This document shows, piece after piece, positions 15,915-64,000 of a DNA stretch of 64,000 nucleotides (within the stretch, counting starts at the first letter, position 1; each line of letters starts with the position of its first letter). The stretch is from Acidobacteria bacterium SCN 69-37 (GTDB lineage: Bacteria; Acidobacteriota; Vicinamibacteria; Vicinamibacterales; SCN-69-37): contig MEDJ01000010.1 in NCBI GenBank assembly GCA_001724025.1, positions 75,368-139,367 on the forward strand, read 5' to 3'. The translations under genes were made by a program, and so were the position numbers. The notes below the pieces were generated by a model. It ran no database searches and was not told the origin of the DNA. It saw only the letters and a list, made by a program, of their open reading frames with translations.

Positions 15915-16517
15915 TCACGCCCGACGACTGAGCACGTCGTCGATAATACCGTATTCCTTCGACTGCTCCGCGCCCATGATGTAGTCGCGATCGGTGTCGT
16001 CCTCGATGCGCACGAGCGGCTGGCCGGTGTGGCTGGCCAGAATCTCGTTCAACCGCGCGCGCATGCGCAGGATTTCCTTCGCGTGGATGTCGATGTCGGC
16101 CGCCTGGCCCGCCAGACCCGACATGTGCGGCTGATGGATCAGGATGCGCGAGTTGGGCAGCGAGAACCGCTTGCCCTTCGCTCCAGAGGCGAGCAGCACC
16201 GCCGCCATCGACGCCGCCTGGCCGATGCAGTAGGTCGCCACGTCCGGCTTGATGAACTGCATCGTGTCGTAGATGGCCAGACCCGCCGTGATCGACCCGC
16301 CGGGTGAGTTGATGTACAGGACGATGTCGCGCTCGGGATCCTCGGCTTCGAGGAAGAGCATCTGCGCGATGACCAGGTTGGCAATCGTGTCGTCGATCGG
16401 CGTCCCGATGAAGATGATGCTGTCCTTCAGGAGGCGCGAGAAGATGTCGTAGGCGCGTTCGCCGCGGTTGGTCTGTTCGACCACCATCGGAACCAGTTGG
16501 GCGCGAGGGTCAGGCAT
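15915..16517 (-). CDS. clpP: ATP-dependent Clp protease proteolytic subunit ClpP
   Basis: A 200-residue serine peptidase starting [15 protein letters not shown]; a longer version from 16565 is open but adds an atypical Arg/Pro-rich extension. The catalytic triad is visible as [11 protein letters not shown] (Ser), RILIHQP (His) and DDTDRDY (Asp). It forms the barrel chamber of ClpXP. Neighbours are tig upstream and clpX downstream, the standard order in many bacteria. Confidence 0.97.
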
Positions 16518-16624
16518 AAGCGTCGTGTCGGATCGTCGGTTCGGGCGGGGCTGGGTGCCGGTCACGCGACCGGTCCGCCGGCGGAGATCGCCGGCGCCCG
16601 CGTCTCCAGCATATCGGCACGCGG

Positions 16625-16648
16625 GCGCCGCCGGATTATCGGCGGCGC
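16625..16648 (-). other. hairpin between tig and clpP
   Basis: Nine-bp stem (GCGCCGCCG at 16625-16633 with CGGCGGCGC at 16640-16648) around a 6-nt AT-rich loop, 30 bases downstream of the tig stop. No U tract follows, so it is better read as an mRNA processing or attenuation hairpin than as a full terminator. Confidence 0.5.
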
Positions 16649-16676
16649 TGCACGTGCGTGCGTGACGTTGCGCGGC

Positions 16677-17993
16677 TCAGGTCGTAATCTGGGCTCGCTC
16701 GAGCAGCCACGTCATCGTCTTCTCACGCTGGATCCCGGCGAGCAGCCGGGGCAGCGCGTTTTCCTTCTCGAGGCGGGCCCGCACAGAGGCCGGCGTCCGG
16801 CCGGCGCGCTCGGCGAATTTCGCGATCTCCGCGTCGAGCTCCTCGTCGGTGGCCGCAATGGCCTCCCGCCTGGCAATCTCGTCGAGGACCAGTGTGCTCT
16901 TCACGGTCTCGACCGCAGCCTCGCGCTGGCGTTCGCGGAACTCGCGCCAGTCGATGTTGACCTGCATCGGATCGAGCCCCTGATCGATCAACCGGCGGAC
17001 GAACTCCTCGAGGCGGCGATCGACTTCCTGGTCGACGAGCACCTCGGGCGCCGCCGGCAGCCGCGTGGCCAGTTGCTGCAGGACCGCGTGGCGGACGGCG
17101 TGATCGGCATCGGCCTCGGCGCCCTGCTGCAGGTCCTCGCGGATCCGCTCGCGCAGCGCGTCGAGCGTCTCGACGTCGCTCACCTCCTTCGCGAAGTCGT
17201 CGTCGATCGCCAGCAGTTCGCGACGCCGGAGGCCCTTGACCGTTACCTGATAGTCGACGGTGGCACCGGCCAGCTCGGCAATCTCGTAGTCGGCCGGGTA
17301 GGTGACCGTGAACGACCGCTGTTCACCATCGGTCGCTCCCGTGAGGTGCTCGTCGAATCCGGGCGGGTTGGCGCTCGCGCCGATTTCGACCGAGACGTTC
17401 TCGAGCGACTCGGGCGTCTCGGCCGGCGGCGGCGTCTCGCCGGGGACGACAATCAGCTGACCCCGCTTCGTGCGCGTGAGGTCGAGCAGCAGCGTGTCGC
17501 CGGCTTCCGCCCCACGGCCTTCCACCGGCTGCCACCGCGCGTGTCGCGCCTGCAGCTGCTCGAGCGCCTGGTCGACCGCGCCCACCTCGAGCACCGCCGG
17601 CGGCTTCTGGAGCGACAGGCTCGTGTATTCGCCCGGCTCGATGACCGGCAGCGTCTCGAAGTCCGCCTGGAACGTCATCGGCTGGCCTTCCTCGAGCACC
17701 AGTTCCTTGATGTCCGGCGACGCGACGGGCTCGAGCCCGTGCTCACGCAGGGCATCGTTGACCAGGCGCGGCACGAGATCGTGTGCCACGTCGTGCAGGA
17801 TCTGCTCCTTGTAGCGCTGGCGGACGACCTTGGGGGGCACCTTCCCGGGGCGGAACCCGGGCACGCGCGCCGACTGTGTATACGCGCGGGCGACGCGATC
17901 AATCTCGACCTCGACGACGTCGGGGGGGATTTCGAACGACAGCTGCTTGCGGGTCTCGGAAACCTCGGTGAACTCGGTTTTCATCACGGACAT
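16677..17993 (-). CDS. tig: trigger factor, ribosome-associated chaperone/PPIase
   Basis: A 438-residue protein starting MSVMKTEFTEVSETRKQL (an ATG 9 nt further in is an alternative). Order: ribosome-binding domain with the signature PGFRPGKVPPKVVRQRY (about 50-66), a PPIase/FKBP-like domain (about 150-250), and the long helical C-terminal chaperone domain. The FKBP domain carries an insertion rich in Pro/Thr (ETPPPAETPES). Trigger factor binds nascent chains at the ribosome exit. It is first of the tig-clpP-clpX-lon run. Confidence 0.96.
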   Translation of the reverse strand: MSVMKTEFTEVSETRKQLSFEIPPDVVEVEIDRVARAYTQSARVPGFRPGKVPPKVVRQRYKEQILHDVAHDLVPRLVNDALREHGLEPVASPDIKELVLEEGQPMTFQADFETLPVIEPGEYTSLSLQKPPAVLEVGAVDQALEQLQARHARWQPVEGRGAEAGDTLLLDLTRTKRGQLIVVPGETPPPAETPESLENVSVEIGASANPPGFDEHLTGATDGEQRSFTVTYPADYEIAELAGATVDYQVTVKGLRRRELLAIDDDFAKEVSDVETLDALRERIREDLQQGAEADADHAVRHAVLQQLATRLPAAPEVLVDQEVDRRLEEFVRRLIDQGLDPMQVNIDWREFRERQREAAVETVKSTLVLDEIARREAIAATDEELDAEIAKFAERAGRTPASVRARLEKENALPRLLAGIQREKTMTWLLERAQITT

Positions 17994-18251: not shown

Positions 18252-18313
18252 CCCGATGCCCGATTATGCACCGGCCGACGGCGCCGCCGCGATGGCGGGC
18301 GCTCGCGGGTCTC

Positions 18314-18333
18314 CCCGAGGCTGAAGCCTCGGG
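18314..18333. repeat. dispersed palindrome, CTGAAG centre
   Basis: CCCGAGGCT at 18314-18322, GA centre, AGCCTCGGG at 18325-18333. It is nearly identical to the copy at 22517-22538. Confidence 0.7.
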
Positions 18334-18394
18334 CTCCGGGCGCGCGCGGGGCCCCAGGCGTCCGGGCGCAGGCGCGCCCCCCGTGTCGCCCGTG

Positions 18395-20953
18395 TCAGAA
18401 ATCCAGCCAGCGGCTGACCTTGACGAGAAATACGTTCTCGGCCGGGGCGTCGAATACGCGGCGCAGGTCGCGACCGAGCGAGAAGTCGCCGTGCGGGGAA
18501 ACGCCGTCGCGCCCCTGCTGCCAGACGACGAACAGTGTGGACCCGGGACGGTATTCCCAGCGCAGGACGTTGGTGGTGCGGAACGCGCGGACGTTGAAGT
18601 CCGGGTGGCCGTCGTAGGCGATCGCGCGGTACCTGTCGGCGTCGGCTGCCGCGCGCGGGGCGACCAACTCGGCGAACGATTCATACGCGCCCGCCGAGAC
18701 GAACGGGCGCGCATAAATCTGTACGCTCAGGCTTGGCGACACCGTGTAATTCACGCGCGTGCCCACGCCGATCGTCATCCGATCGATCGCCCCGAACACG
18801 TACTGTGTGCCGTCGGCGCCCTGCCGATTCGTCACCCACTGCCGCGCCGTCCGCTGGTGGCTGACGTCGAGTTCCACTCCCACGGTCAACGCCGACGTGG
18901 GACGCAGTGTCGTCCGGAACCACTGGCTCGAGTCGTGGGATCCGTTCCCGTCGGAGTACACGCCCTGTTCGACGTACATCGACAGCGGCTTGCGGTCGTC
19001 GGTCTCGATATACGCCCACGCGCTCGCCACGCCCGGCGCCAGGCCGCCCGGCCCACCCCGCGTCAGCCGATCGTCGAAGTGCTCGAGTTCCCGCGTACCG
19101 CCAGACCCGAAGCCCCAGTTGCCGATGGTGCGCCAGTGCGCGTTGACGTTGAACCCGAGATTGCGCCGGTCTCCCCCGAACGTCCAGCCCGCCCACTGAT
19201 TGATGTTGAAGCGGAACGTGCGGAAGAAGCGGCCGGGCGTCTCGTCCTTGAACTGAATCCAGCTCTCGGCCCACGTCTGATCCGCGCGCTCCTGGAAGCC
19301 CAGGTCATTGATGTCGAAACCGGGTGACCGATAGCCCGCGTTGACGTTGAAGACGACGTGCGCGCCGCCAATCTTGCCGAACGAGGCGCCGCCCGAGTGT
19401 CCGCCGAGCGCCGTGCGCAGCGGATCGTAGCGGAGGTGGGAGGCGTCGGGCCGCTGGAAGCTGTGGACGGTGCTGCGCTGCAGGCGATCGATCGCCGTGG
19501 CATCACCGCGCACCTGGCTGCCCGCCCAGAATCCCTGCAGCGAGTAGTGGCCCGACGGCCCGAAGCGCAGATCCCCGTCCGCTCCGCCCGTCACGGCCGA
19601 CGAGGGGAGGAACGTCAGGTCGTCGGGCAGGCGGCGGGTCGTGTTGGTGGCCATCACGCTGAGGCGCGATTGATCCGCGAACTCGCGCGTGATGCGCACG
19701 ACCGAGTAGCTGGTCACCGGCTCGACCGGCGTCCGCGTCCGGGGTCCGTCGTTGGCCGACGCCAGCCGCGCCTGCTCGGCGCCCGTCACAGCGGTCAGCG
19801 CGCCGACGGCGAAGGCGCCGATGCGCCCCGTGAGCTTGGCGGCCCCGAGAATGGTCGTATTCGACGGCTGATCGGCGAATCCGTCCTCGGGAGCCGCCAC
19901 CTGTCGCTGCGGGGCCCGACCGATGCGGCGCGAGTAGAACAGGTTCCTGAACTGGAACGTTCCTGCACCCTCGAGAAAGAACGGCCGACGTTCCGAGAAG
20001 AACGTCTCGAAGGCGCCGAGGTTCACGACGGCCGGATCGGCCTCGACCTGCCCGAAGTCCGGGTTGATCGTGCCTGTCAGCGTGAGGCCCGGCGCGACCT
20101 GGTACTTGACGTCGACGCCCGCCGAAAACGCGCCGGCAGGCGAGGAGACGAACGGATTGCCGGGAGCCGCGGGCGTGGTGGTCATCCGGGCCACCGCGTA
20201 CGGCATGACTTCGAGCGCGCGCGCCGGGGCGTCGATCTGCAGCCCGTTCAATTCCCCGAACGACGAGACGAACCCGCTCGCACTGCGCGCGAGCAGCGGC
20301 CACGTGGACGTCTCGTTCGTGTGGGCGACGGTGCGCATCGCGGCGAAGCCGATCGCCTCGATGTCGCGGCCGCGGAAGCGCAGCTGGGAGAAGCCGATGC
20401 GGAACTCGGCCTGCCAGCCGTCCGTCGTGCGCCGGACCGCCGCATCCCACACCGCGTCCCAGCCCTCGTCGTTGTTCGTGTCGTTGTACCAGTAGCGGTC
20501 GTACTGCACGCCGGCCACGTTCACGGCGAATTCGTAGGCGGTGCGCTTGTCGTTGAAGGAATCGATCAGCACCGCGATCCAGTCGGATGGCGAGCGATCG
20601 TCGCGGCGCGTGAGGTGGCCGACAATCGCGTCGGGTTCGGGATCGCGGGCCTGGACCGCGACGAACAGCGCGTCGGCGTCGTACGCCACCCGTACGACTG
20701 TCGCGTGCGTCGTCGACGCACCCTCGTCCGGTTCGCGCTGCACGAATGTGTCGATGGGCGGGGCGGCCTGCCAGACAGGCTCGTCGAACACGCCGTCGAT
20801 TCGCATCGGATCGGCCCCGGCCGGGACGGCCGCGGCGTGGACCGCGAGACGGGCGCTGGCGGCGCCCGAGGCGGTGGCGGCAAGCTGGCCGGCCAGCCCG
20901 GGGGCGGGCCAGGCCCAGAGGCCGGCGAGCAGGAGGACGGAGATCGATCGCAC
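18395..20953 (-). CDS. CBM9-like plus DUF5916 outer-membrane protein
   Basis: An 852-residue exported protein. GTG start with GGGAG six bases upstream; signal peptide in the first 22 residues. Residues about 45-230 form a CBM9-like sugar-binding fold (RIDGVFDEPVWQ). The remainder is DUF5916, with the hallmark FFSERRPFFLEGAGTFQF. It ends in alternating aromatic beta strands and a terminal Phe (SRWLDF) typical of outer-membrane barrels. Members are frequent in Acidobacteriota and Bacteroidota; the role is unproven, perhaps glycan binding or transport. The downstream neighbour is the tRNA-Leu gene. Confidence 0.85.
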   Translation of the reverse strand: MRSISVLLLAGLWAWPAPGLAGQLAATASGAASARLAVHAAAVPAGADPMRIDGVFDEPVWQAAPPIDTFVQREPDEGASTTHATVVRVAYDADALFVAVQARDPEPDAIVGHLTRRDDRSPSDWIAVLIDSFNDKRTAYEFAVNVAGVQYDRYWYNDTNNDEGWDAVWDAAVRRTTDGWQAEFRIGFSQLRFRGRDIEAIGFAAMRTVAHTNETSTWPLLARSASGFVSSFGELNGLQIDAPARALEVMPYAVARMTTTPAAPGNPFVSSPAGAFSAGVDVKYQVAPGLTLTGTINPDFGQVEADPAVVNLGAFETFFSERRPFFLEGAGTFQFRNLFYSRRIGRAPQRQVAAPEDGFADQPSNTTILGAAKLTGRIGAFAVGALTAVTGAEQARLASANDGPRTRTPVEPVTSYSVVRITREFADQSRLSVMATNTTRRLPDDLTFLPSSAVTGGADGDLRFGPSGHYSLQGFWAGSQVRGDATAIDRLQRSTVHSFQRPDASHLRYDPLRTALGGHSGGASFGKIGGAHVVFNVNAGYRSPGFDINDLGFQERADQTWAESWIQFKDETPGRFFRTFRFNINQWAGWTFGGDRRNLGFNVNAHWRTIGNWGFGSGGTRELEHFDDRLTRGGPGGLAPGVASAWAYIETDDRKPLSMYVEQGVYSDGNGSHDSSQWFRTTLRPTSALTVGVELDVSHQRTARQWVTNRQGADGTQYVFGAIDRMTIGVGTRVNYTVSPSLSVQIYARPFVSAGAYESFAELVAPRAAADADRYRAIAYDGHPDFNVRAFRTTNVLRWEYRPGSTLFVVWQQGRDGVSPHGDFSLGRDLRRVFDAPAENVFLVKVSRWLDF

Positions 20954-54402: not shown

Positions 54403-55638
54403 TCACACCTGAGGCTCCGGGAAGAGGCCCGGCAACCACCGGGAGGCCAGAGCTGCCGGGAAGGTGATGAACAGAGGGGCGCGCGTGCTCGCCGACGACA
54501 GCACCCCGCGCTCGAGCAGGGCGGACACGACCCGGCGGGCGGCGCGCTCGCTGACACCAAGCCGTCCGGGCACGTCACCGCGCCGCAGTTCACCTCGGAA
54601 CAGCACAGTTTCGAGGAGCTGGCCCGACCTGGCGGGCAGGAATCCCGCGAGGATCTCGTCCTGCGCCCAGAGCAGGATGCGGTCGCGCAGCCGGTCTGGC
54701 TGGACGAGATCCTCCATGAACCGGACCTGGTCGAGGCACGTCCGCAGAAAGAAGATCGTAAATGCCGCCAGCGCTTCCTCGCTGAGTGTCCCGCGGCCGT
54801 CGAGGTCGTTGCGGCGAGCCATGTCGCACGCCGCCAGGTGCTGCCTGTAATCCGCGGCCTGGCGCGCGAGTCCGCGGACCACCGACCACAGGCCGCCGGT
54901 GTCGAGCGCTTCGAGCAGGCTCGCGTGGGACATCAGGCGTGCCACGCGGCCGTTGCCGTCCGCGAACGGGTGAATCCAGAGCAGGCGGTGATGCGCGGCG
55001 GCAGCGGCGAGGATCGTGTCCGAACGGCCGAGCCTGCTGTAGACCGCCTCGAATCGCGTCAGAAAGCGGGGGACGGCACCGGGACTGACGGCCAGGTGCC
55101 GACCGACCTGGACATCCTCGCGGCGCAGTTCGCCACCGGTCCCCGTGATCGCGCGCCCCGTATCCGGCTCCGAGACGACGAGCAGATCCCGGGGCAGCAG
55201 GGCTGCGAAGCGGCGGTGAATCTCGCGGATGGCGTCGACGGTGGCCGCGCGCCCTCTGACGCCGCCGTCATCGAGCCACTGCTGCACCTCGACGTGTGCC
55301 CTGGCTTCGAGCTGGAGATTGCGCTGTTCGGGGACATGGCTGTAGTCGTGCCGCATCGCCCGTTCGATATCGACAGGGTGCGTGTCGTGCCCCTCGATGA
55401 GGTTGGAGTAGTAGCAGTTCATAGCGCGGACCAGCGTGGCGAGCGGTGCCACGAGGCCGGGCGGCAGGCTGCGACGGAAGCCGGACGATGCGGCGGCAAG
55501 TTCCAGGGCGAGGTCGTTCAGCGCACCACGGTGTGGCGATCCGGCCGGGAGCACCAGCGGTTCCATGGCGGACGTGTCTTCCCCGCGGTCGGTGACCGTC
55601 CATCTGGCCGGTTTGATGGCCGGTTCTGATTCGTCCAT
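54403..55638 (-). CDS. Fic family AMP-transferase with C-terminal winged helix
   Basis: A 411-residue protein from the ATG at 55638 (a TTG two codons upstream is possible). Counting from that TTG, the class II inhibitory helix motif SNLIEG is at residues 80-85 (S/TxxxEG, regulatory Glu84). The catalytic loop HPFADGNGRVAR is at 225-236 with the invariant His. The C-terminal 80 residues contain a winged-helix DNA-binding fold (VPGRLGVSERAARRVVSALL). Fic enzymes transfer AMP or phosphates to proteins. This Fic-wHTH type is common and may autoregulate. It has a clear upstream promoter and borders the integrated element. Confidence 0.9.
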   Translation of the reverse strand: MDESEPAIKPARWTVTDRGEDTSAMEPLVLPAGSPHRGALNDLALELAAASSGFRRSLPPGLVAPLATLVRAMNCYYSNLIEGHDTHPVDIERAMRHDYSHVPEQRNLQLEARAHVEVQQWLDDGGVRGRAATVDAIREIHRRFAALLPRDLLVVSEPDTGRAITGTGGELRREDVQVGRHLAVSPGAVPRFLTRFEAVYSRLGRSDTILAAAAAHHRLLWIHPFADGNGRVARLMSHASLLEALDTGGLWSVVRGLARQAADYRQHLAACDMARRNDLDGRGTLSEEALAAFTIFFLRTCLDQVRFMEDLVQPDRLRDRILLWAQDEILAGFLPARSGQLLETVLFRGELRRGDVPGRLGVSERAARRVVSALLERGVLSSASTRAPLFITFPAALASRWLPGLFPEPQV

Positions 55639-55645
55639 AACCAAC

Positions 55646-55860: not shown

Positions 55861-55942
55861 TCTCGTCTGGTCTCGTCCGGTTTTGCTGGCGTTTTCGGTC
55901 GTTCGGCCCTCCCTCTGTCTGGTCTCATCCGGTCTCGTCTGG
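55861..55942. repeat. two tandem pairs of a 10-bp repeat next to the att site
   Basis: TCTCGTCTGG at 55861 and TCTCGTCCGG at 55871 form one pair; TCTCATCCGG at 55923 and TCTCGTCTGG at 55933 form a second, 62 bases on. They lie between the att-like sequence and the integrase gene, where arm-type integrase or excisionase sites are expected. Confidence 0.6.
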
Positions 55943-56032: not shown

Positions 56033-57211
56033 TCACCCGTGCAGCAGGGCCGCCAGCCGGCCGGCCGCATCCTGTTGCATCGACGGCAGGACGTGGCTGT
56101 AGGTGTTCAACGTCATCTCGACCTTGCTGTGCCCGAGTCGCCGCTGAACCACGTGCGCCGGGACGCCGGCTGAGAGCATCAGCGTGGCGCAGGTGTGGCG
56201 CAGCCCGTGGAACTTGATGCGCTTCACCCCCGACGCCTTGATGAGCCGGCCGAACTCCCGTGAGCCGATCGTGTTCACCTGCAACGGCAGCCCGAGCGAA
56301 TCGGCCCGCTGGTGCAGGTCGCCCCATTCCTTGGCGAACACGAGGCCGAGGTCATGGTAGTGGCGGCGGTTGCGCAGTTTCACCTCAGCCTGTTGTTTCT
56401 TGTGCGCGGCCAACAGCGCGACCGATTCGGCTGAGAGTTCGAGTGTGCGAATCGTGCCGGTCTTCGTCGTACCGAACGCGGGCGTTCGTCCCCCCTTGAG
56501 CAACGTCCGCCGGATGGTCAGCTTGCCGCTGCTGAGGTCCACATCGGACCATTGCAGCGCCGCCAGCTCACCACGGCGGGCGCCCGTGTCGAGCGCGAGC
56601 GTGTAGAACGCGGCCGGCTGTGGACCGGCGGCCTTCGCGGTCTTCAAGAATCGTGCGGCTTCATCCGCCGTCCACACGTGGTCGAGCACGTCTTCACGGG
56701 CGACCTTGCGCGGCTTGTTTGAGACGAGCGCCGCCACGTTGCGCGTCACCAGACCGTTGTGGACAGCAGCCTTCAAGGCACTGTGCAGGATCGCGTGATG
56801 AATCTGCACCGTGGACGACGACAGCCCCGACAGACCACTGTAGTACGCCTCGATGTCGAGCGGCTTCAACGCCTGCAACCGCGTGCCGCCGAGCTTGGGC
56901 ACAATCTGCGTCTCCACGATGCGCTTGTAGCTGTCGAATGTCGCCTGCGACTTCAAGGGTGGCGTGATGGCTTTGGTCAACCATTCGGTCAACCACTCTC
57001 CGAGCGTTGATCGGGATGGCTCCACGAACTCGCCGCGATTGGCGGCGCGAACGCGCTCGGTGAGTTCAGCCTCGGCCTGCTTCCTCGTCCCGCGAAACGT
57101 GATCCACTTCTGCCGGCGCTTCTTCCGACCTGTCTCCGGCTCGACCTCATACCCTAGGTCGAGAATTAGGGACCACGAACCGGCATAGCGTTGCTTGAGC
57201 GTGCCTCTCAT
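56033..57211 (-). CDS. int: tyrosine recombinase/phage integrase
   Basis: A 392-residue protein. An AP2-like arm-binding N-terminus (MRGTLKQRYAGSWSLILDLGYE) is followed by a SAM-like core-binding domain (about 65-165). The catalytic domain has Arg in DTGARRGELAALQW, His-x-x-Arg in HGLRHTCAT, a second His in RRLGHSKV and the nucleophilic Tyr in LNTYSHVLPS. Its stop is 65 bases from the repeat cluster and 200 from the att-like site. Confidence 0.95.
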   Translation of the reverse strand: MRGTLKQRYAGSWSLILDLGYEVEPETGRKKRRQKWITFRGTRKQAEAELTERVRAANRGEFVEPSRSTLGEWLTEWLTKAITPPLKSQATFDSYKRIVETQIVPKLGGTRLQALKPLDIEAYYSGLSGLSSSTVQIHHAILHSALKAAVHNGLVTRNVAALVSNKPRKVAREDVLDHVWTADEAARFLKTAKAAGPQPAAFYTLALDTGARRGELAALQWSDVDLSSGKLTIRRTLLKGGRTPAFGTTKTGTIRTLELSAESVALLAAHKKQQAEVKLRNRRHYHDLGLVFAKEWGDLHQRADSLGLPLQVNTIGSREFGRLIKASGVKRIKFHGLRHTCATLMLSAGVPAHVVQRRLGHSKVEMTLNTYSHVLPSMQQDAAGRLAALLHG

Positions 57212-57554: not shown

Positions 57555-59075
57555 TCACGGGCGTGGACACCCGGCGGAGGCCACCATCGGATGTTCCTGA
57601 TGTCGGGTATTGTCTTCCGACGCTGATTCCTTGAGCGCCCACTTCGTGGTCGCGGCGACATGCGCCGGGTCGCGACCTGCCGCCAGCGCGAGCGCCCCAG
57701 CGACAGCATTGGCGCGGTCATCGTGTTGGCCGGGCCGATGGTCGATACGATCACGGCCGGCCGAACCGCGACGACGTTCCAGCCCGCGCAGTTCTCGCAA
57801 TAGGTCGGGCAGGTCGAGCAAGCGCACGCGGCCGGCATTCATCAACGGCAAGAGTTCGAGATAGAGACCGGACCGATCCAACGGGCTCGGCGTGTAGGTC
57901 AGGCCATTCACGCGGAAGCCTTCCAGCACAAACCCGGCCGCGAACCGGTCGCCTGTCGTCGAGTTCAATCCGTAGGCGCGCGAGAGGTCTGCACTTTCGG
58001 CAATGACTCCGGACGGATTGAATGGTGGCGTCCACGTTCGCAGGACATCGAGCACCACGCGGTCACCGTCCCGATGCGCAATCGCCTTCGTCCACGCATC
58101 CGAACCGGACCCACTCGCCGGGTCATCGAATGCCACGTAGGCCACGCCGGGCACGCGGGCGCGCTCTCGTGTTCCAGTCTCGACGCTGGCCGCAATCGCA
58201 TCGGCATCAAGGAACGTCGAAACCCCTTGCCGGAACTCGCCCAACACTTCCGAGCGATACGCTTCCGGGTCATCCTGTTGCATGCGCGTCAGGTAGTCGT
58301 GGCCCAACGTGGGATTCATTTCCGGCGCGCTCGCTTGCCACACGAGCGTCGTCGAGTCATCGCGTCCGAAATGCTGCTGATGCAATGCGTGGAGTTCACC
58401 TTCCGGGGCGTAGGGCGACGACAAGATGAGCAGACGGCCGTTCGTGGTCGCGAGCGTGGGGCGAACTGCCCGCAGCATCTCTCGGTCAACGGGTGCGCCC
58501 TCCGAGTTGCGGAAGTAGGCCAATTCCGACAGGACAACGGCACGTGCGCGAATGCCACGCACGGCCGCCGGCGTGCATGGATAGCTGGCCAACGTGACGC
58601 CCGTGCTCAGCGTCAGGTTGTCAACGCGTTCCTGCGTCACGAGAGACTTGAGCAGCGGGACGTCGTCAGATCGAAATGCGGCGCGGGCATAGGCGAGTTG
58701 CGTGCGCAAGCTGGCCCGCGAGTCCTGAGAGATTGATAGTGAGAAGAGGTCCGTGCCATCAGGTTCGGGCGTGGCCGTGATCGCCTCGTAGGCTTGAAAG
58801 GCCGAACCGATGCGGTCTTTCCCGGCCTGACGGCCGACGATGACGACGCCTTGCTTGTGGCCGTCCGGCGGCGGCGCATACACCGTGCGTCCGGTGTGCT
58901 TGCGAAACAGCGTGATGGCGTCAGCCTCCGCGACACCGACAGTATCCAGACTGCGCAGGGGCAGCCCATAGAAGCAGGCGAGAAAGACGCACCACGTCCT
59001 CCACGTCGAGAGGTCTCGAAAGACGGGCAACCCGCCGAGCAAGTTTGGATCGCGAAGGGCGTCGATGATGGTCAC
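57555..59075 (-). CDS. terL: phage terminase large subunit
   Basis: A 506-residue protein from the GTG at 59075 (MTIIDALRDPNLLGGLPVFR). ATPase with a Walker A variant VIVGRQAGKDRIG (Asp instead of Ser/Thr after Lys) and Walker B VVLSELAYF. The RNase H-like nuclease half has VAYVAFDDPASGSGSDAW (catalytic Asp pair) and ends with HDDRANAVAGALALA. It packages DNA into capsids. Unusually it is the last gene before the integrase rather than followed by portal and capsid genes. No small-subunit HTH partner is certain; the gene at 61144 is a candidate. Confidence 0.85.
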   Translation of the reverse strand: MTIIDALRDPNLLGGLPVFRDLSTWRTWCVFLACFYGLPLRSLDTVGVAEADAITLFRKHTGRTVYAPPPDGHKQGVVIVGRQAGKDRIGSAFQAYEAITATPEPDGTDLFSLSISQDSRASLRTQLAYARAAFRSDDVPLLKSLVTQERVDNLTLSTGVTLASYPCTPAAVRGIRARAVVLSELAYFRNSEGAPVDREMLRAVRPTLATTNGRLLILSSPYAPEGELHALHQQHFGRDDSTTLVWQASAPEMNPTLGHDYLTRMQQDDPEAYRSEVLGEFRQGVSTFLDADAIAASVETGTRERARVPGVAYVAFDDPASGSGSDAWTKAIAHRDGDRVVLDVLRTWTPPFNPSGVIAESADLSRAYGLNSTTGDRFAAGFVLEGFRVNGLTYTPSPLDRSGLYLELLPLMNAGRVRLLDLPDLLRELRGLERRRGSAGRDRIDHRPGQHDDRANAVAGALALAAGRDPAHVAATTKWALKESASEDNTRHQEHPMVASAGCPRP

Positions 59076-59102
59076 GGTTCGACTCACTACGTTTCCAGAG
59101 GA

Positions 59103-59138
59103 GCCGCGACGGCGGGAGGCTACCCACACCGTCGCGGC
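59103..59138 (-). other. hairpin just upstream of the terminase start
   Basis: Perfect 10-bp stem (59103-59112 with 59129-59138, 16-nt loop) starting 28 bases upstream of the terminase GTG. It could be an attenuator or a stabilising 5' hairpin. Confidence 0.55.
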
Positions 59139-59308: not shown

Positions 59309-59593
59309 CTACACGCCGGCCGTGCCGATTCCTGTGGACCTACACCGCCGACACGTCGAGGGCAGCAATTCGCGATGCTTCGCTGCGCGTGCTGCGTCAA
59401 CCGCGTCGATCCGAATCGTCGCGCCGCACTGACGACAAATGACATCCCGAACGAATGCCTGAAGAATCCAGCGCACGCGGCGAGCCACTTCCTTCGCGTC
59501 GTCCGCCAGCGCCGCCGGCGTGTGTCTGGTGACGAGTGCAGTCGCCTGCCGCAGAGCCTGCACGTCGCCGTCGTCCTCAACGGCGTGGGTCAC
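59309..59593 (-). CDS. small zinc-ribbon-like protein of the element
   Basis: A 94-residue protein from GTG 59593, which overlaps the previous stop (GTGA). The C-terminal half has ICRQCGATIRIDAVD and LPSTCRRCRSTG, a CxxC...CxxC pair like zinc ribbons. Phage zinc-ribbon proteins of this size often work in transcription or DNA binding; the role here is unknown. Confidence 0.65.
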   Translation of the reverse strand: MTHAVEDDGDVQALRQATALVTRHTPAALADDAKEVARRVRWILQAFVRDVICRQCGATIRIDAVDAARAAKHRELLPSTCRRCRSTGIGTAGV

Positions 59594-60321
59594 CGGGCCG
59601 CCGCCAATTCGGGATGCGCCATCGAGACGGCATGAATCGCAGCGCGCAGTGAGAGCCCGGTCTCTCGGGCGTGGCGCTGACAGAGCGTGTCGAACGTCTC
59701 GCCGGCTCGGGCGCGCAAACTGATCGGCTGCGGTGGCGTCGGCGCGGCCTCTTCGACGCGCTCCATGCCAGACGCCCGCCACGCCGCTGCTGCCTCAGGT
59801 AGTTCCCGCGCGGCCAGCTTCACCGCGTCTGCGAAGCCGTGCTCGGCGGACAGCACACGGACGCGGCCGTCGAACTGTGTTGATAGTGCAATCGTGTCTT
59901 TCATAACCTCTCCCTCTGGTGACATTGATGCCGGCGTGACGAGCCGTTCCGGTGGGGCGGGCCGAAGGTCCGTCGCTCTCGCCCATTGCTTGAGTACGCG
60001 ACCGTCCTGCGTGCGGAGTTGCGCGAAGGCGTCATCGCCGAGTCCGCGCACCTTCACGATCTCGAACACGGCGCCGTCGTGATGGGGCAGCGCATCCTCT
60101 TCGACCATCACGCGCTGGCCGACGTCGGCAAGATGCTTGACGGCCTGAGGACGGTTCACGGGCACCGCGCCCGGTCTGAGCGTCACGCGCCGGCCGACGG
60201 CGGCGAGGTTCGTCACGGCCGACTTCTTCGGCGGTGTCACAGAGGCCTGCCGACGCTTCGCGATCAGGTCGTGAACCCGCGCCATGTCGATCCGCTCCGA
60301 CGAAACGGCGAAGTGATTCAC
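59590..60321 (-). CDS. phage-type protein, unknown
   Basis: A 243-residue protein, MNHFAVSSERIDMARVHDLIA. Start and stop overlap both neighbours (ATGA and GTGA). The C-terminus LRAAIHAVSMAHPELAAAR is reminiscent of the tail of phage scaffold or prohead-associated proteins, but that is weak. No enzymatic motif. Predicted mostly helical. Confidence 0.6.
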   Translation of the reverse strand: MNHFAVSSERIDMARVHDLIAKRRQASVTPPKKSAVTNLAAVGRRVTLRPGAVPVNRPQAVKHLADVGQRVMVEEDALPHHDGAVFEIVKVRGLGDDAFAQLRTQDGRVLKQWARATDLRPAPPERLVTPASMSPEGEVMKDTIALSTQFDGRVRVLSAEHGFADAVKLAARELPEAAAAWRASGMERVEEAAPTPPQPISLRARAGETFDTLCQRHARETGLSLRAAIHAVSMAHPELAAAR

Positions 60322-60965
60322 GATGCTGCTCCCTTCACATCCACCTTGCCGACGCGCTCAATTGCTTGCGCGACCGCGTCATCGCGGCGGCGGTCGAGGC
60401 GAATCGGCGCGTCCTTGTGAAATCGATTGCGCTCGACTCGTTCGACGCGCAGCTTCATCGCGTCCACGATGGCCGACAATGGCGAGAACGGCCGACGAAG
60501 GGCGACGTCGTCGAGTCCCTCGTGCCGCAGACGGGCGGCGTCTCCGCCGAGTTTCTTTTCGAGCGTGAGCGCGAGATTCAGAATCTCGTCGTCTGGCAGA
60601 TTCGCGATGGCGGCGTCCGCGAACGACTGCGCCTCCGCCGTGACTGCCTGATAGGCCGCCAACGCCTGCGTCAGTCGCGCTTCTTCTTCCCGCATACGGT
60701 CGGCTGCCTCTCGATCTTCGGCGTCACGCAATGCCGTCGCCAGCATGTCGAGACGGCGCGTCAATGCGCGCGCCGAATCGTCGAGGTGGGTCCATCGCTG
60801 GGCCGTTGCCTCGTCAGTCGCCGCGTCGAGCGCCACAAGGTCGCGTTGCTGACACGTGACCATCAACTGCTCCTGCGCGGCGGCCATCTGCTCGCGGATA
60901 CTTCCCGCCGGCGGGAACGTGACCGGCCCCCGCCGCCATGATTTCAGCCAATCGATGAATGTCAT
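60318..60965 (-). CDS. phage-type coiled-coil protein, unknown
   Basis: A 215-residue protein, MTFIDWLKSWRRGPVTFPPA. Long helical, charged middle (REEEARLTQALAAYQ; LTLEKKLGGDAARLR) suggests a coiled coil. Start overlaps the preceding stop and its own stop overlaps the next start by ATGA. No family recognised. Confidence 0.6.
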   Translation of the reverse strand: MTFIDWLKSWRRGPVTFPPAGSIREQMAAAQEQLMVTCQQRDLVALDAATDEATAQRWTHLDDSARALTRRLDMLATALRDAEDREAADRMREEEARLTQALAAYQAVTAEAQSFADAAIANLPDDEILNLALTLEKKLGGDAARLRHEGLDDVALRRPFSPLSAIVDAMKLRVERVERNRFHKDAPIRLDRRRDDAVAQAIERVGKVDVKGAAS

Positions 60966-61147
60966 GACTCTTCCTTCTCTGCCTGCAATAGACGCGCCCG
61001 AAGCGTCTGAATCCGTGCCACCAATGCCACCGACTTCGGAGCCGCTGCGTTGTCGGCCTGTGCATCGAGGCGATCGAGTTCGCCTTCAAGTGACGCGATG
61101 TCAGCGCGCAGGATCGACACGTCGAGCCGTTCCACCGTTGCCGTCAT
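60962..61147 (-). CDS. 61-residue helical protein of the element
   Basis: MTATVERLDVSILRADIASL, followed by a strongly heptad-like Leu/Ala helix. Overlaps both neighbours by 4 bases (ATGA on each side), which is the best evidence that it is translated. Confidence 0.55.
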   Translation of the reverse strand: MTATVERLDVSILRADIASLEGELDRLDAQADNAAAPKSVALVARIQTLRARLLQAEKEES

Positions 61148-61713
61148 TCGGTGGTCTCCTTCGCCGCAGCCGCCCGCGCAAGGTAGGCGGCGAGCGACGG
61201 GGCCTGACGCGCCCGGCGGCCGTCGCCAATGTGGCCGGCCAACTTCTCCCAACGGTCGAGCGCTTCCAGCCATCGCGAGAACGTCGAGCGAACCCGGCCC
61301 TTGGCGGTCGTCAGGCCGCGTGTGGCGAGGTCGCTGGCGAGTAAGCGGAGCGTCGTCTCGACTTCGGCGAGGTGACCGATGCGGGCCGCTTCGATGGCCG
61401 AAAGTTCTTCCAATCCACCACGGTCCGAGACGACCTGCGCCTTGAAGTCCGCCACGCTCAGCCGCGTGTCCGGCGGCAACGCGGCCTCGCCACGGTCGCG
61501 GAACGAATACATTCCATGCGTGCGGCGAATCTGGTTGCCGGGAAGCGGATGGCCCTTCACGCACCGCTCGGCGTCGGTCGCGTGTCGGTCGGTCGCGCCA
61601 CACGAGCAGATCGGCGTCGGCGTCTCGACGTCCGGATCTGGCGCAGCGACAACGGCCACGATGCTGAAGACGCACGCCAGCAGCCAGCCGACCGCGAACA
61701 CGTCAACCGACAT
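61144..61713 (-). CDS. phage-type protein with N-terminal span and CSCG motif
   Basis: A 189-residue protein from ATG 61713, AGGAGG six bases upstream. An N-terminal hydrophobic span (VFAVGWLLACVFSIVAVVA) is followed by CSCGATDRHATDAERC and GHPLPGNQIRRTHG. The GNxxRxTHG segment resembles sequences seen in some phage terminase small-subunit-like proteins, but a membrane span would be odd for that role. Assignment tentative. Overlaps the Mom-like gene by 11 bases. Confidence 0.5.
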   Translation of the reverse strand: MSVDVFAVGWLLACVFSIVAVVAAPDPDVETPTPICSCGATDRHATDAERCVKGHPLPGNQIRRTHGMYSFRDRGEAALPPDTRLSVADFKAQVVSDRGGLEELSAIEAARIGHLAEVETTLRLLASDLATRGLTTAKGRVRSTFSRWLEALDRWEKLAGHIGDGRRARQAPSLAAYLARAAAAKETTE

Positions 61714-62395
61714 ACGCAGCCTCCTGAAGATGGAGCGGTCGGATCGGAGTCGCGCCGTCCAGTCCTGCGGGGTTCGCAGGTGCCTGCTCTTTCGACCGCT
61801 TGGGGTAAGGCTGAACACGGGCCTGCAACTGCTCGTGCATGTCGGCGTCGAGCGGCAGGCAATATCGGAACTTCGGCAAGGTCCGCACGTGCCCGGCATC
61901 GGCGGCGACGTGCTGACGCAACCAATCAATCGCCCGCGTGCGATAGCGACTCGTGATCGTGCGCGGATGCACCAGCCGGCCGTTCAAGCGAATCAGCGAC
62001 TCGCGGGCGGTCGTTCCGAGATAGAGCCAGCCGCACGCCTGATACAGCGTGCCGACGTGATCGTGTTCCGGGTCTGCGTAGCTGACGACGAGGCGCAATC
62101 CGGGACTCTGCCGACGCAGCAGCCTGACCGCCAGAGCAACGACCTTCGATGTCGGAGCCTGATGCGGACCAAGGGCCACGCGACAGAGTTCAACGACCTC
62201 GGACTGTTCCAGCCCGAACGGCGACCCGATGGCGTTGGACGCACCACGGCCGAACACGACCGCGCCACAGAACAGGCCGCCCTCCCAGACACCCAGACAG
62301 ACGAGCCGGCCTGACGGCATCGAACGGCTGTAGTGCCAAGCCTTGACCGCGAACGCTGCCGCGTCCCGGCTACAGAAGTCGAGGCGCAGGTTCAC
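61703..62395 (-). CDS. Mom-like DNA modification protein
   Basis: A 230-residue GNAT-fold protein starting at GTG 62395, which overlaps the ParB-like stop (GTGA). Family signatures: AVKAWHYSRSMPSGRLV, CLGVWEGGLFCGAVVFG, ELCRVALGPHQAPTSKVV and LRLVVSYADPEHDHVGT with YQACGWLYLG. In phage Mu, Mom converts adenine to N6-methylcarbamoyl-adenine and shields phage DNA from restriction. Here it probably does the same for the element; the chemistry is inferred from homology. It sits in a chain of coupled genes. Confidence 0.8.
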   Translation of the reverse strand: MNLRLDFCSRDAAAFAVKAWHYSRSMPSGRLVCLGVWEGGLFCGAVVFGRGASNAIGSPFGLEQSEVVELCRVALGPHQAPTSKVVALAVRLLRRQSPGLRLVVSYADPEHDHVGTLYQACGWLYLGTTARESLIRLNGRLVHPRTITSRYRTRAIDWLRQHVAADAGHVRTLPKFRYCLPLDADMHEQLQARVQPYPKRSKEQAPANPAGLDGATPIRPLHLQEAAYVG

Positions 62396-62961
62396 GATGT
62401 CACCGCCTGTCTGCACGTGCAGGTCGAACAGTGAGGCTGTAGTTCGTCAAGACGGTGCTCGGCTTCGACGGGCTCGAATCGGGGCACGGGCGCATCACTG
62501 CCGAGCAGGTCCGCCAGTTCAGCCGGTGCGAAGAACGACGCGAGGTCGAGACCCGCCTCGGCGTCAGCCTTCAACTGGTCAAGGTTCCATGTCGCCAGTT
62601 CCGCCGCGCGGTTGTCGGCCAAGGCAAGGGCGCGCTTCTGTTCGGGCGACAGACCTCGACGACGAACGGCAATCAGTTCATGGCCGCTGGCCTCGACGAT
62701 GCGGACCTGTTCGATGCCGGCCTCGGCTGCGGCTTCGACCGTGGCGTTACCCGCGAGTACGACGCCGTCCTCGTCGATGACAATCGACCGGGCTGCGCCG
62801 ACGTGCTGGAGCGAATCGGCAATCATGCCGACGTTCCGCGCATTGTGCTCGCGTCGGTTCTCCGGGTCGGACGTCAGGTCGCGCAGGTGCGCCGTGACCG
62901 TCCGATGTTCGGACGTCGCGCCGTCGTCTGGTGGAACGGTCGGCATGGTTGGGTCGGTCAT
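62392..62961 (-). CDS. ParB N-terminal-domain protein
   Basis: A 189-residue protein. Core: VTAHLRDLTSDPENRREHNARN, then SIVIDEDGVVLAGNATVEAA (the ParB Box I-like GNxxxEAA) and the ELIAVRRRGLSPEQKRALAL region. It lacks the HTH and C-terminal dimer domain of chromosomal ParB. This is the phage-type ParB/Srx-fold nuclease or CTPase-like form commonly next to DNA modification genes. Stop overlaps the Mom-like gene. Confidence 0.8.
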   Translation of the reverse strand: MTDPTMPTVPPDDGATSEHRTVTAHLRDLTSDPENRREHNARNVGMIADSLQHVGAARSIVIDEDGVVLAGNATVEAAAEAGIEQVRIVEASGHELIAVRRRGLSPEQKRALALADNRAAELATWNLDQLKADAEAGLDLASFFAPAELADLLGSDAPVPRFEPVEAEHRLDELQPHCSTCTCRQAVTS

Positions 62962-63496: not shown

Positions 63497-64000
63497 TCAC
63501 GACGCCCGCTTTCTGAGGCCGCGATAGACCCGTCCGGCGGCAGTGTCGCGTCGTTCGAACCGCTCGGCCATGCGCCGGCCGAAGGAGGTGTTCGTCAGGC
63601 GCTCGTCGCGCGTGAGCCCCTGCGCCACACACCATGTCTCGTAGGCGAAGAAGGCATCCTTCGCTCTGATCTCGGCCGTGTCGGCGAGGACACACATGTC
63701 CTTGAGAAAGCCGGCGAGCGGGTCCGAATCCTGCTCGTACTCGTGCGTGGCGGCGAGGACGACGGGTGGTGGTTGAAGACCGCGCTTCTGCCAGTCCAGA
63801 CATCCGCGAACCAGCCACGCGAGGATGGCGGGCGATTCTGCGGCGAGTTCGTCCGACAATGCCGGGTTGAGGGCGAAGCGCTGCGTGAAGGGAATCAGAC
63901 GGAGACGCCGCCAAAAGCCGTAGCTGTCGTCACGAACGACAGGTTTGTGATTGACGCTCAGCCAATACTTGCCCGCCGGTTCGAACGTGAAGAACTCGCC
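63497..64000 (-). CDS. D5/P4-type primase-helicase, C-terminal part
   Basis: Frame open to the window edge; 167 residues of the C-terminus visible. EFFTFEPAGKYWLSVNHKPV and WRRLRLIPFTQRF are the strong signature of phage/plasmid D5_N/primase-helicases (P4 alpha-like), followed by AILAWLVRGCLDWQKRGL and YEQDSDPLAGFLKDMC. These proteins start replication of satellites and phages. The helicase core and any primase domain lie outside. The ALSDELAAESPAILAW link is shorter than the usual sequence at this point. Confidence 0.88.
   Translation of the reverse strand, partial: GEFFTFEPAGKYWLSVNHKPVVRDDSYGFWRRLRLIPFTQRFALNPALSDELAAESPAILAWLVRGCLDWQKRGLQPPPVVLAATHEYEQDSDPLAGFLKDMCVLADTAEIRAKDAFFAYETWCVAQGLTRDERLTNTSFGRRMAERFERRDTAAGRVYRGLRKRAS

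Follow-up and report, generated by a model that had tools for sequence, protein, structure and literature searches.

The window (the whole 64,000-nucleotide stretch of Acidobacteria bacterium SCN 69-37 that was analysed) encodes a Mom-family protein whose start overlaps the stop of a gene for a ParB/Srx-fold protein. The same pairing recurred in most of the relatives sampled, and in related phages Mom and a methyltransferase domain interchange behind one ParB module. We hold, with slightly better than even confidence, that the pair is a DNA-adenine modification cassette of a phage-like element, with the ParB acting as a co-translated, exchangeable accessory subunit. The features of the pair are as follows:

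62392..62961, minus strand: putative ParB/Srx-fold accessory protein of 189 aa, starting with ATG; ParB N domain, helical tail, and C-terminal CxxC
61703..62395, minus strand: Mom-family GNAT, predicted adenine-modifying enzyme of 230 aa from the GTG at 62395 (Pfam, PHROG, AlphaFold2 model)
62392..62395, minus strand: GTGA start/stop overlap coupling Mom to ParB (read from the sequence)
62416..62430, minus strand: codons around the C-terminal CSTC (CxxC) knuckle of the ParB, adjoining the Mom start (C178/C181 conservation)

The GTGA overlap reported in the initial annotation was borne out: Mom most likely begins with the GTG at 62395-62393, and the ParB ends with the TGA at 62394-62392, the two together reading GTGA. 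The ORF finder had placed the Mom start at an upstream in-frame GTG (62416; ORF 61703-62416). We favoured the overlapping GTG because an overlap of ParB stop and Mom start was seen in 119 of the 131 homologous loci measured, with −4 nt being the commonest geometry (41/131). Both window genes are under purifying selection (dN/dS 0.17-0.28, NG86, against two close viral relatives).

The protein at 61703 had been called Mom-like and credited with three motifs (AWHYSRSMPSG, CLGVWEGG, and VVSYADPEHDH), all of which are present in it. It matched Pfam PF25680 (Mom) with an E-value of 1.5e-45 and 155.8 bits, against a curated cut-off of 27.1 bits, and phrog_1384 with an E-value of 1.8e-48. The only PDB match of the family profile was Mu Mom (8bv8, E 9.7e-22). 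An AlphaFold2 model built from 66 relatives (pLDDT 90.3) superimposed on 8bv8 with a Z-score of 20.4 and an rmsd of 3.4 over 190 residues; the next-best GNAT scored 12.6. Rows from the phage collection were left out of two structure-prediction inputs. Mu Mom is clearly the best structural match, so the match to an unrelated GNAT that the initial annotation had named as a refutation did not appear, and this ranking, together with the sole PDB profile match, ruled out an ordinary GNAT acetyltransferase. According to its title, 8bv8 is the inactive S124A mutant of Mu Mom. Residue S124 aligns with a near-invariant position of the window protein, S89 when the 236-residue translation is numbered and S83 when counting begins at the GTG, and H27, Y28, E75, R78, S111, D114, and Y124 are identical to Mu-type Mom, at an identity of about 24-26% between the proteins. 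Its sequence, its fold, and its active-site positions all identify the protein as a Mom; the group that it transfers is a prediction.

The assignment of the partner to the ParB/Srx fold also held. The protein had no accepted Pfam match, and it matched phrog_620 (E 1e-23) and phrog_498, a ParB-methyltransferase family (E 2.3e-22). A profile of its relatives matched Spo0J/Noc/ParB structures with E-values from 4e-14 (Spo0J, 6sdk) to 2e-10. The AlphaFold2 model (pLDDT 85.7) gave a Z-score of 8.1 over 76 residues against 7bnr, and Foldseek supported the fold; the structures matched (6sdk, 7bnr, and 7nfu) are canonical ParB/Noc CTPases. Fold neighbours also include SerK and sulfiredoxin. The recognised part is mainly the N domain (about residues 20-96), followed by a helical tail and an extended C-terminus with the CxxC. 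No HTH, dimerisation domain or nearby parA gene was recognised using Pfam, PHROGs, and fold search, which aligned mainly the N domain; absence from these searches is no proof. Pocket residues N35 and N117 are kept. The arginine of the P-motif (GxxR) is replaced by T74 (GNAT); R is found in 67 of 81 relatives, and GNxT in a minority. Since other ParB-CTPase folds no longer bound NTP once this arginine was changed to alanine (PMC12704722), an NTP switch in the window ParB is doubtful.

Nearly all of the 81 aligned Mom-coupled ParBs have C178 and C181 (79 for each residue). Of the 141 upstream ParBs, 123 carry a terminal CxxC, where the two genes are coupled. The knuckle reads CPxCG in most of these ParBs; those of a second Mom-coupled class have an NGNAL-type tail instead. 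The knuckle as a mark of Mom partners alone was ruled out, since it also occurs in ParBs preceding C5-methyltransferases. Short CPxCG-ending ParBs directly upstream of C5-cytosine DNA methyltransferase genes were seen in the viral contigs L217, L302, L335, and L351.

The pair lies in what had been described as an integrative element, and the genes flanking it agree with that description. One strand carries the integrase, TerL, conserved genes, Mom, ParB, D5-type primase, and an excisionase-like HTH:

63497..64000, minus strand: C-terminal part of a D5-type primase/helicase (phrog_6088, E 1e-42; 2.2e-119 for the whole gene, which continues past the window to L002:12196)
61144..61702 (start approximate), minus strand: gene directly after Mom, conserved in the two closest elements (tblastn 54% in L192, 59% in L194)
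60318..60965, minus strand: conserved element gene (67% identity in L192)
59590..60321, minus strand: conserved element gene related to the C-terminal part of the head-maturation-protease ORF of L194 (55% in L192; 38% in L194:6085-6696)
57555..59120, minus strand: terminase large subunit, TerL (phrog_2, E 1e-12; 69% identity in the L194 element)
56033..57211, minus strand: tyrosine integrase (PF00589, E 6.3e-27)

The gene at 61144..61702 had no PHROG match, and the L194 head-maturation-protease ORF matched phrog_328 (E 6.8e-28). Two viral contigs, L192 and L194, have the same gene order, from ParB and Mom through conserved genes to TerL and the integrase. No capsid or portal genes were recognised in the window's element, and the neck and head-protease genes of L194 are missing from the window or only partly kept. 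The element is either satellite-like or a reduced prophage. In L192, which holds the closest Mom relative, the integrase of the first element is followed by another TerL and by a primase-like match that is weak (15972-17222 and 18285-19877), perhaps a sign of two elements side by side. Beyond the integrase end, just outside the element, lies a gene for a Fic/DOC-domain protein (window 54403-55644, minus strand). Between it and the integrase are short imperfect repeats (window 55861-55942; TCTCGTCTGG) that may lie close to where the element ends. The contig extends about 3.4 kb beyond the window, to an ORF resembling IS3-type transposase OrfA (L002:14346-14687) that was recognised by eye only and perhaps explains why the assembly stopped there.

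We measured how often the pair recurs using Mom-seeded scans of viral contigs and one genome per species, which yielded about 180 loci, and typed the neighbours by running an iterative ParB profile on the ORFs flanking 179 Moms. Loci L178 and L179, from genomes labelled as belonging to the window's phylum, appear identical to L113 and L112, the latter a Thermoanaerobaculia MAG, as ORF lengths and match coordinates are the same; this lends indirect support to the acidobacterial setting. Among the 179 Moms, which came from phages and genomes, ParB was directly upstream in 141, directly downstream in 12, Com was the neighbour in two, and neither was found in 24; the sample is biased towards relatives of the query, and the fractions hold for that part of the family, not for all Moms. 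Together with the conserved overlaps, the 153 of 179 Moms flanked by a ParB ruled out chance adjacency. ParB-flanked Moms span Acidobacteriota, Bacillota, Pseudomonadota, Chloroflexota, and phages of Actinomycetota. The pair had been thought possibly undescribed in an acidobacterial element; it proved real and was not peculiar to that setting, being the usual arrangement for the Mom family in the sampled phages and prophages. For example, it is carried by phiEf11, Microbacterium phage Appa, and Arthrobacter phage Sicarius2, where the genes have been annotated side by side, one by one.

Several of the 24 Moms with neither neighbour are second tandem copies or lie at contig ends. Among the loci typed, a group of actinobacterial Moms, one Woesearchaeota Mom, and the Salmonella VSiP Mom had no recognisable adjacent ParB. 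In the Mom tree, the 12 cases with a downstream ParB make up one side of a branch, on which the named organisms shown are Chloroflexota. Loci L157, L161-L164, L167-L171, L174, and L175 have this reversed order, with Mom followed by a usually overlapping ParB that carries no terminal CxxC. Tandem Moms behind one ParB (L012:3986-5397, L035:3270-4702, L048:437-1779, and L049:507-1771) perhaps reflect a heterodimer or two specificities. No natural single-chain ParB-Mom fusion was found among the loci examined. A Com-like four-cysteine protein (L145:3355-3585) is encoded upstream of a Rhodobacteraceae Mom that groups with the ParB-coupled Moms, which suggests that Com and ParB replace each other.

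The partners of the ParB module were surveyed in two ParB-anchored scans covering 109 long proteins (44 domain-scanned) and 43 short ones. An N6_N4 methyltransferase domain was present in 43 of the 44 long proteins scanned, and Mom was encoded downstream of 12 of the 43 short ParBs. The genes following other short ParBs (n = 26) included nine for C5-methyltransferases, five for ABC proteins (some with a GNAT domain), and three matching the queuine tRNA-ribosyltransferase family, as DpdA does, with single cases of TAGT, TET/JBP, an N6/N4 methyltransferase, and a terminase small subunit. Further ParB neighbours in annotated phages were a PAPS reductase (Bacillus phage 031MP002) and a glycosyltransferase with a UDP-glucose dehydrogenase (Microbacterium phage Tyrumbra), and a terminase small subunit gene follows some ParBs. 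In L299:2531-3634, L308:2498-3634, and similar viral contigs, an ABC ATPase with a GNAT domain follows a short ParB without CxxC. The ABC-GNAT proteins behind short ParBs are likely another acyl-type DNA modification enzyme.

All 81 of the 81 Mom-coupled ParBs matched the N domain of a methyltransferase-fused ParB, the best at 87% protein identity over 129 residues; the window ParB matched the L295 methyltransferase fusion at 35% over 131 aa (E 6e-17). Exchange of the partner was visible in DNA. Between L106 (Mom) and L211 (methyltransferase), the ParB half is 87.7% identical over 308 bases, there is no match across the partner, and similarity resumes at 89% over 94 bases from around the ends of the Mom and methyltransferase genes. 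Between L078 and L343, the ParB half is 81.8% identical, the partner again does not match, and the downstream DNA is 87.8% identical. Based on these two patterns, Mom and the methyltransferase domain are alternative partners of one ParB module in related phages.

If the pair works as a modification cassette, Mom is predicted to put methylcarbamoyl or a related small group on adenines of the element's DNA, which would shield that DNA from host restriction enzymes. The ParB would be translated just ahead of Mom from one message via the GTGA overlap, and this co-translation argues for joint production. It would be a generic module that phages join to many DNA-modifying enzymes, and would most likely hold, position or license the enzyme on DNA without itself performing the chemistry. 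From these comparisons we infer the identity of the added group, a Mom-ParB complex, contact of the ParB with DNA, and protection from restriction. The simplest view is that the ParB works either at the DNA or in assembly of the enzyme. There are two precedents for an accessory role: DpdB, a ParB-like ATPase that acts with DpdA to insert preQ0 into DNA (PMC12839542), and the surveyed ParB-methyltransferase fusions (PMC12704722). Against an accessory subunit, Mu Mom operates with Com and without a ParB, and a ParB must therefore be dispensable for Mom chemistry as such; in addition, some Moms have no adjacent ParB, the window ParB has lost its P-motif arginine and shows no recognised HTH-type DNA-binding domain, and some ParBs precede a terminase small subunit gene.

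The initial annotation had suggested that the partner may target, recognise or regulate the modification. Regulation, which we consider unlikely while granting it a real chance, would mean that the ParB controls the production or activity of Mom, as Com does in Mu or DndB in phosphorothioation, so as to limit or time a toxic modification; to do so, it might bind the message or the promoter of mom, the CPxCG knuckle serving as a Com-like zinc site. Com is the zinc-finger protein of the com/mom operon that turns on mom translation (PMC6483171), a Com-like gene occupies the ParB's place in SfMu and at the Rhodobacteraceae Mom, the terminal CxxC lies at the coupling point, and DndB, a member of the ParB superfamily, is described as a negative regulator (PMC10853773). 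However, the ParB module is also fused into methyltransferases, where translational control of a separate gene would be senseless. Single-chain fusions and the reversed gene order in Chloroflexota both argue against mere control of Mom translation, and the latter, being adjacent and mostly overlapping, speaks for a protein partnership rather than expression control alone. Several coupled ParBs lack the CPxCG, which is also present upstream of C5-methyltransferase genes. The data point to an accessory subunit more than to a regulator dedicated to Mom, but they are not proof.

It is improbable that the ParB has an independent function and merely travels with Mom, whether as a nuclease that cleaves the DNA of the host or of rivals or as a partition protein that segregates the element. 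Many phage annotations do read "ParB-like nuclease" or partition protein, and nicking activity was reported for other ParB/Srx members (PMC12839542), but the start/stop overlap is conserved, the association is repeatedly and mainly with modification enzymes, including fusions to methyltransferases, and neither an HTH domain nor an adjacent parA gene was recognised. We consider least probable of all that the ParB/Srx protein is an NTP-using enzyme that makes or activates the donor group of Mom, in the manner of the serine kinase SerK. The ATP-using SerK and sulfiredoxin share the fold, which profile and Foldseek searches back, and both are among its neighbours; yet the same module serves unrelated donors (SAM methyltransferases, DpdA-like enzymes, glycosyltransferase, and TET), and such indifference to partner chemistry argues against donor making. 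The P-motif arginine is also absent from the window ParB, and Mu Mom manages without a ParB.

Compared with known systems, the accessory-subunit reading combines familiar parts. Mu com-mom shares with the window the Mom fold and active-site residues, a small upstream gene overlapping the mom start, and a CxxC in its product; however, Mu has Com (62 aa, with four zinc-binding cysteines) and no ParB, whereas the gene upstream of the window mom encodes a 189-aa protein of the ParB/Srx fold with a terminal CxxC, not a Com zinc-finger protein. The phage ParB-N6/N4 methyltransferase fusions (PHROG 498; PMC12704722) have the ParB N module, at up to 87% identity, an enzyme acting on DNA bases, and the swap at one locus in common with it, but the window enzyme is a GNAT on a separate, overlapping gene, and a CxxC tail takes the place of the fused domain. 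The Dpd system likewise joins a ParB-like protein, DpdB, to a DNA base-modifying enzyme, DpdA (PMC12839542), and DpdA-like genes also follow short ParBs; it differs in performing preQ0 exchange as a multi-gene host defence system, and DpdB was likened to the window ParB by description. By description, too, DndB resembles it as a member of the ParB superfamily whose gene accompanies a DNA modification system, although Dnd modifies the backbone with sulphur and DndB is described as a regulator. Canonical ParB/Noc CTPases share the N-terminal fold, unlike the window ParB in their P-motif arginine, here a threonine, and in the HTH and dimerisation domains, which were not recognised in it.

A wider reading, tentative and to our minds somewhat short of even, is that short ParB/Srx proteins form a general, exchangeable chassis, used by phages and their satellites, that loads or tethers DNA-base-modifying enzymes of at least six chemistries on phage DNA: m6A/m4C, m5C, Mom, DpdA-type deazaguanine, TET/TAGT, and ABC-GNAT acylation. 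Com of Mu would then be the exception.

Each part of the system was already known. What looks new is that the partnership is fixed, that one clade has the reversed gene order, that the ParB ends in a knuckle, and that Mom and a methyltransferase exchange at one locus. No published description of the Mom-ParB pair was found in the literature searched, and an earlier mention may exist elsewhere. To our knowledge, Mom is known almost only from Mu, where its other needs and the way it finds DNA are unsettled. A conserved, mostly translationally coupled ParB is a concrete candidate for a component of Mom systems in many phages, and the swap of Mom and methyltransferase behind one ParB at one phage locus is a natural experiment on "ParB-like nuclease" genes. 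Many of these genes in phages probably serve DNA modification, not partition, which would account for a large set of probably misnamed phage genes, and scanning behind short ParBs offers a route to new DNA-modifying enzymes.
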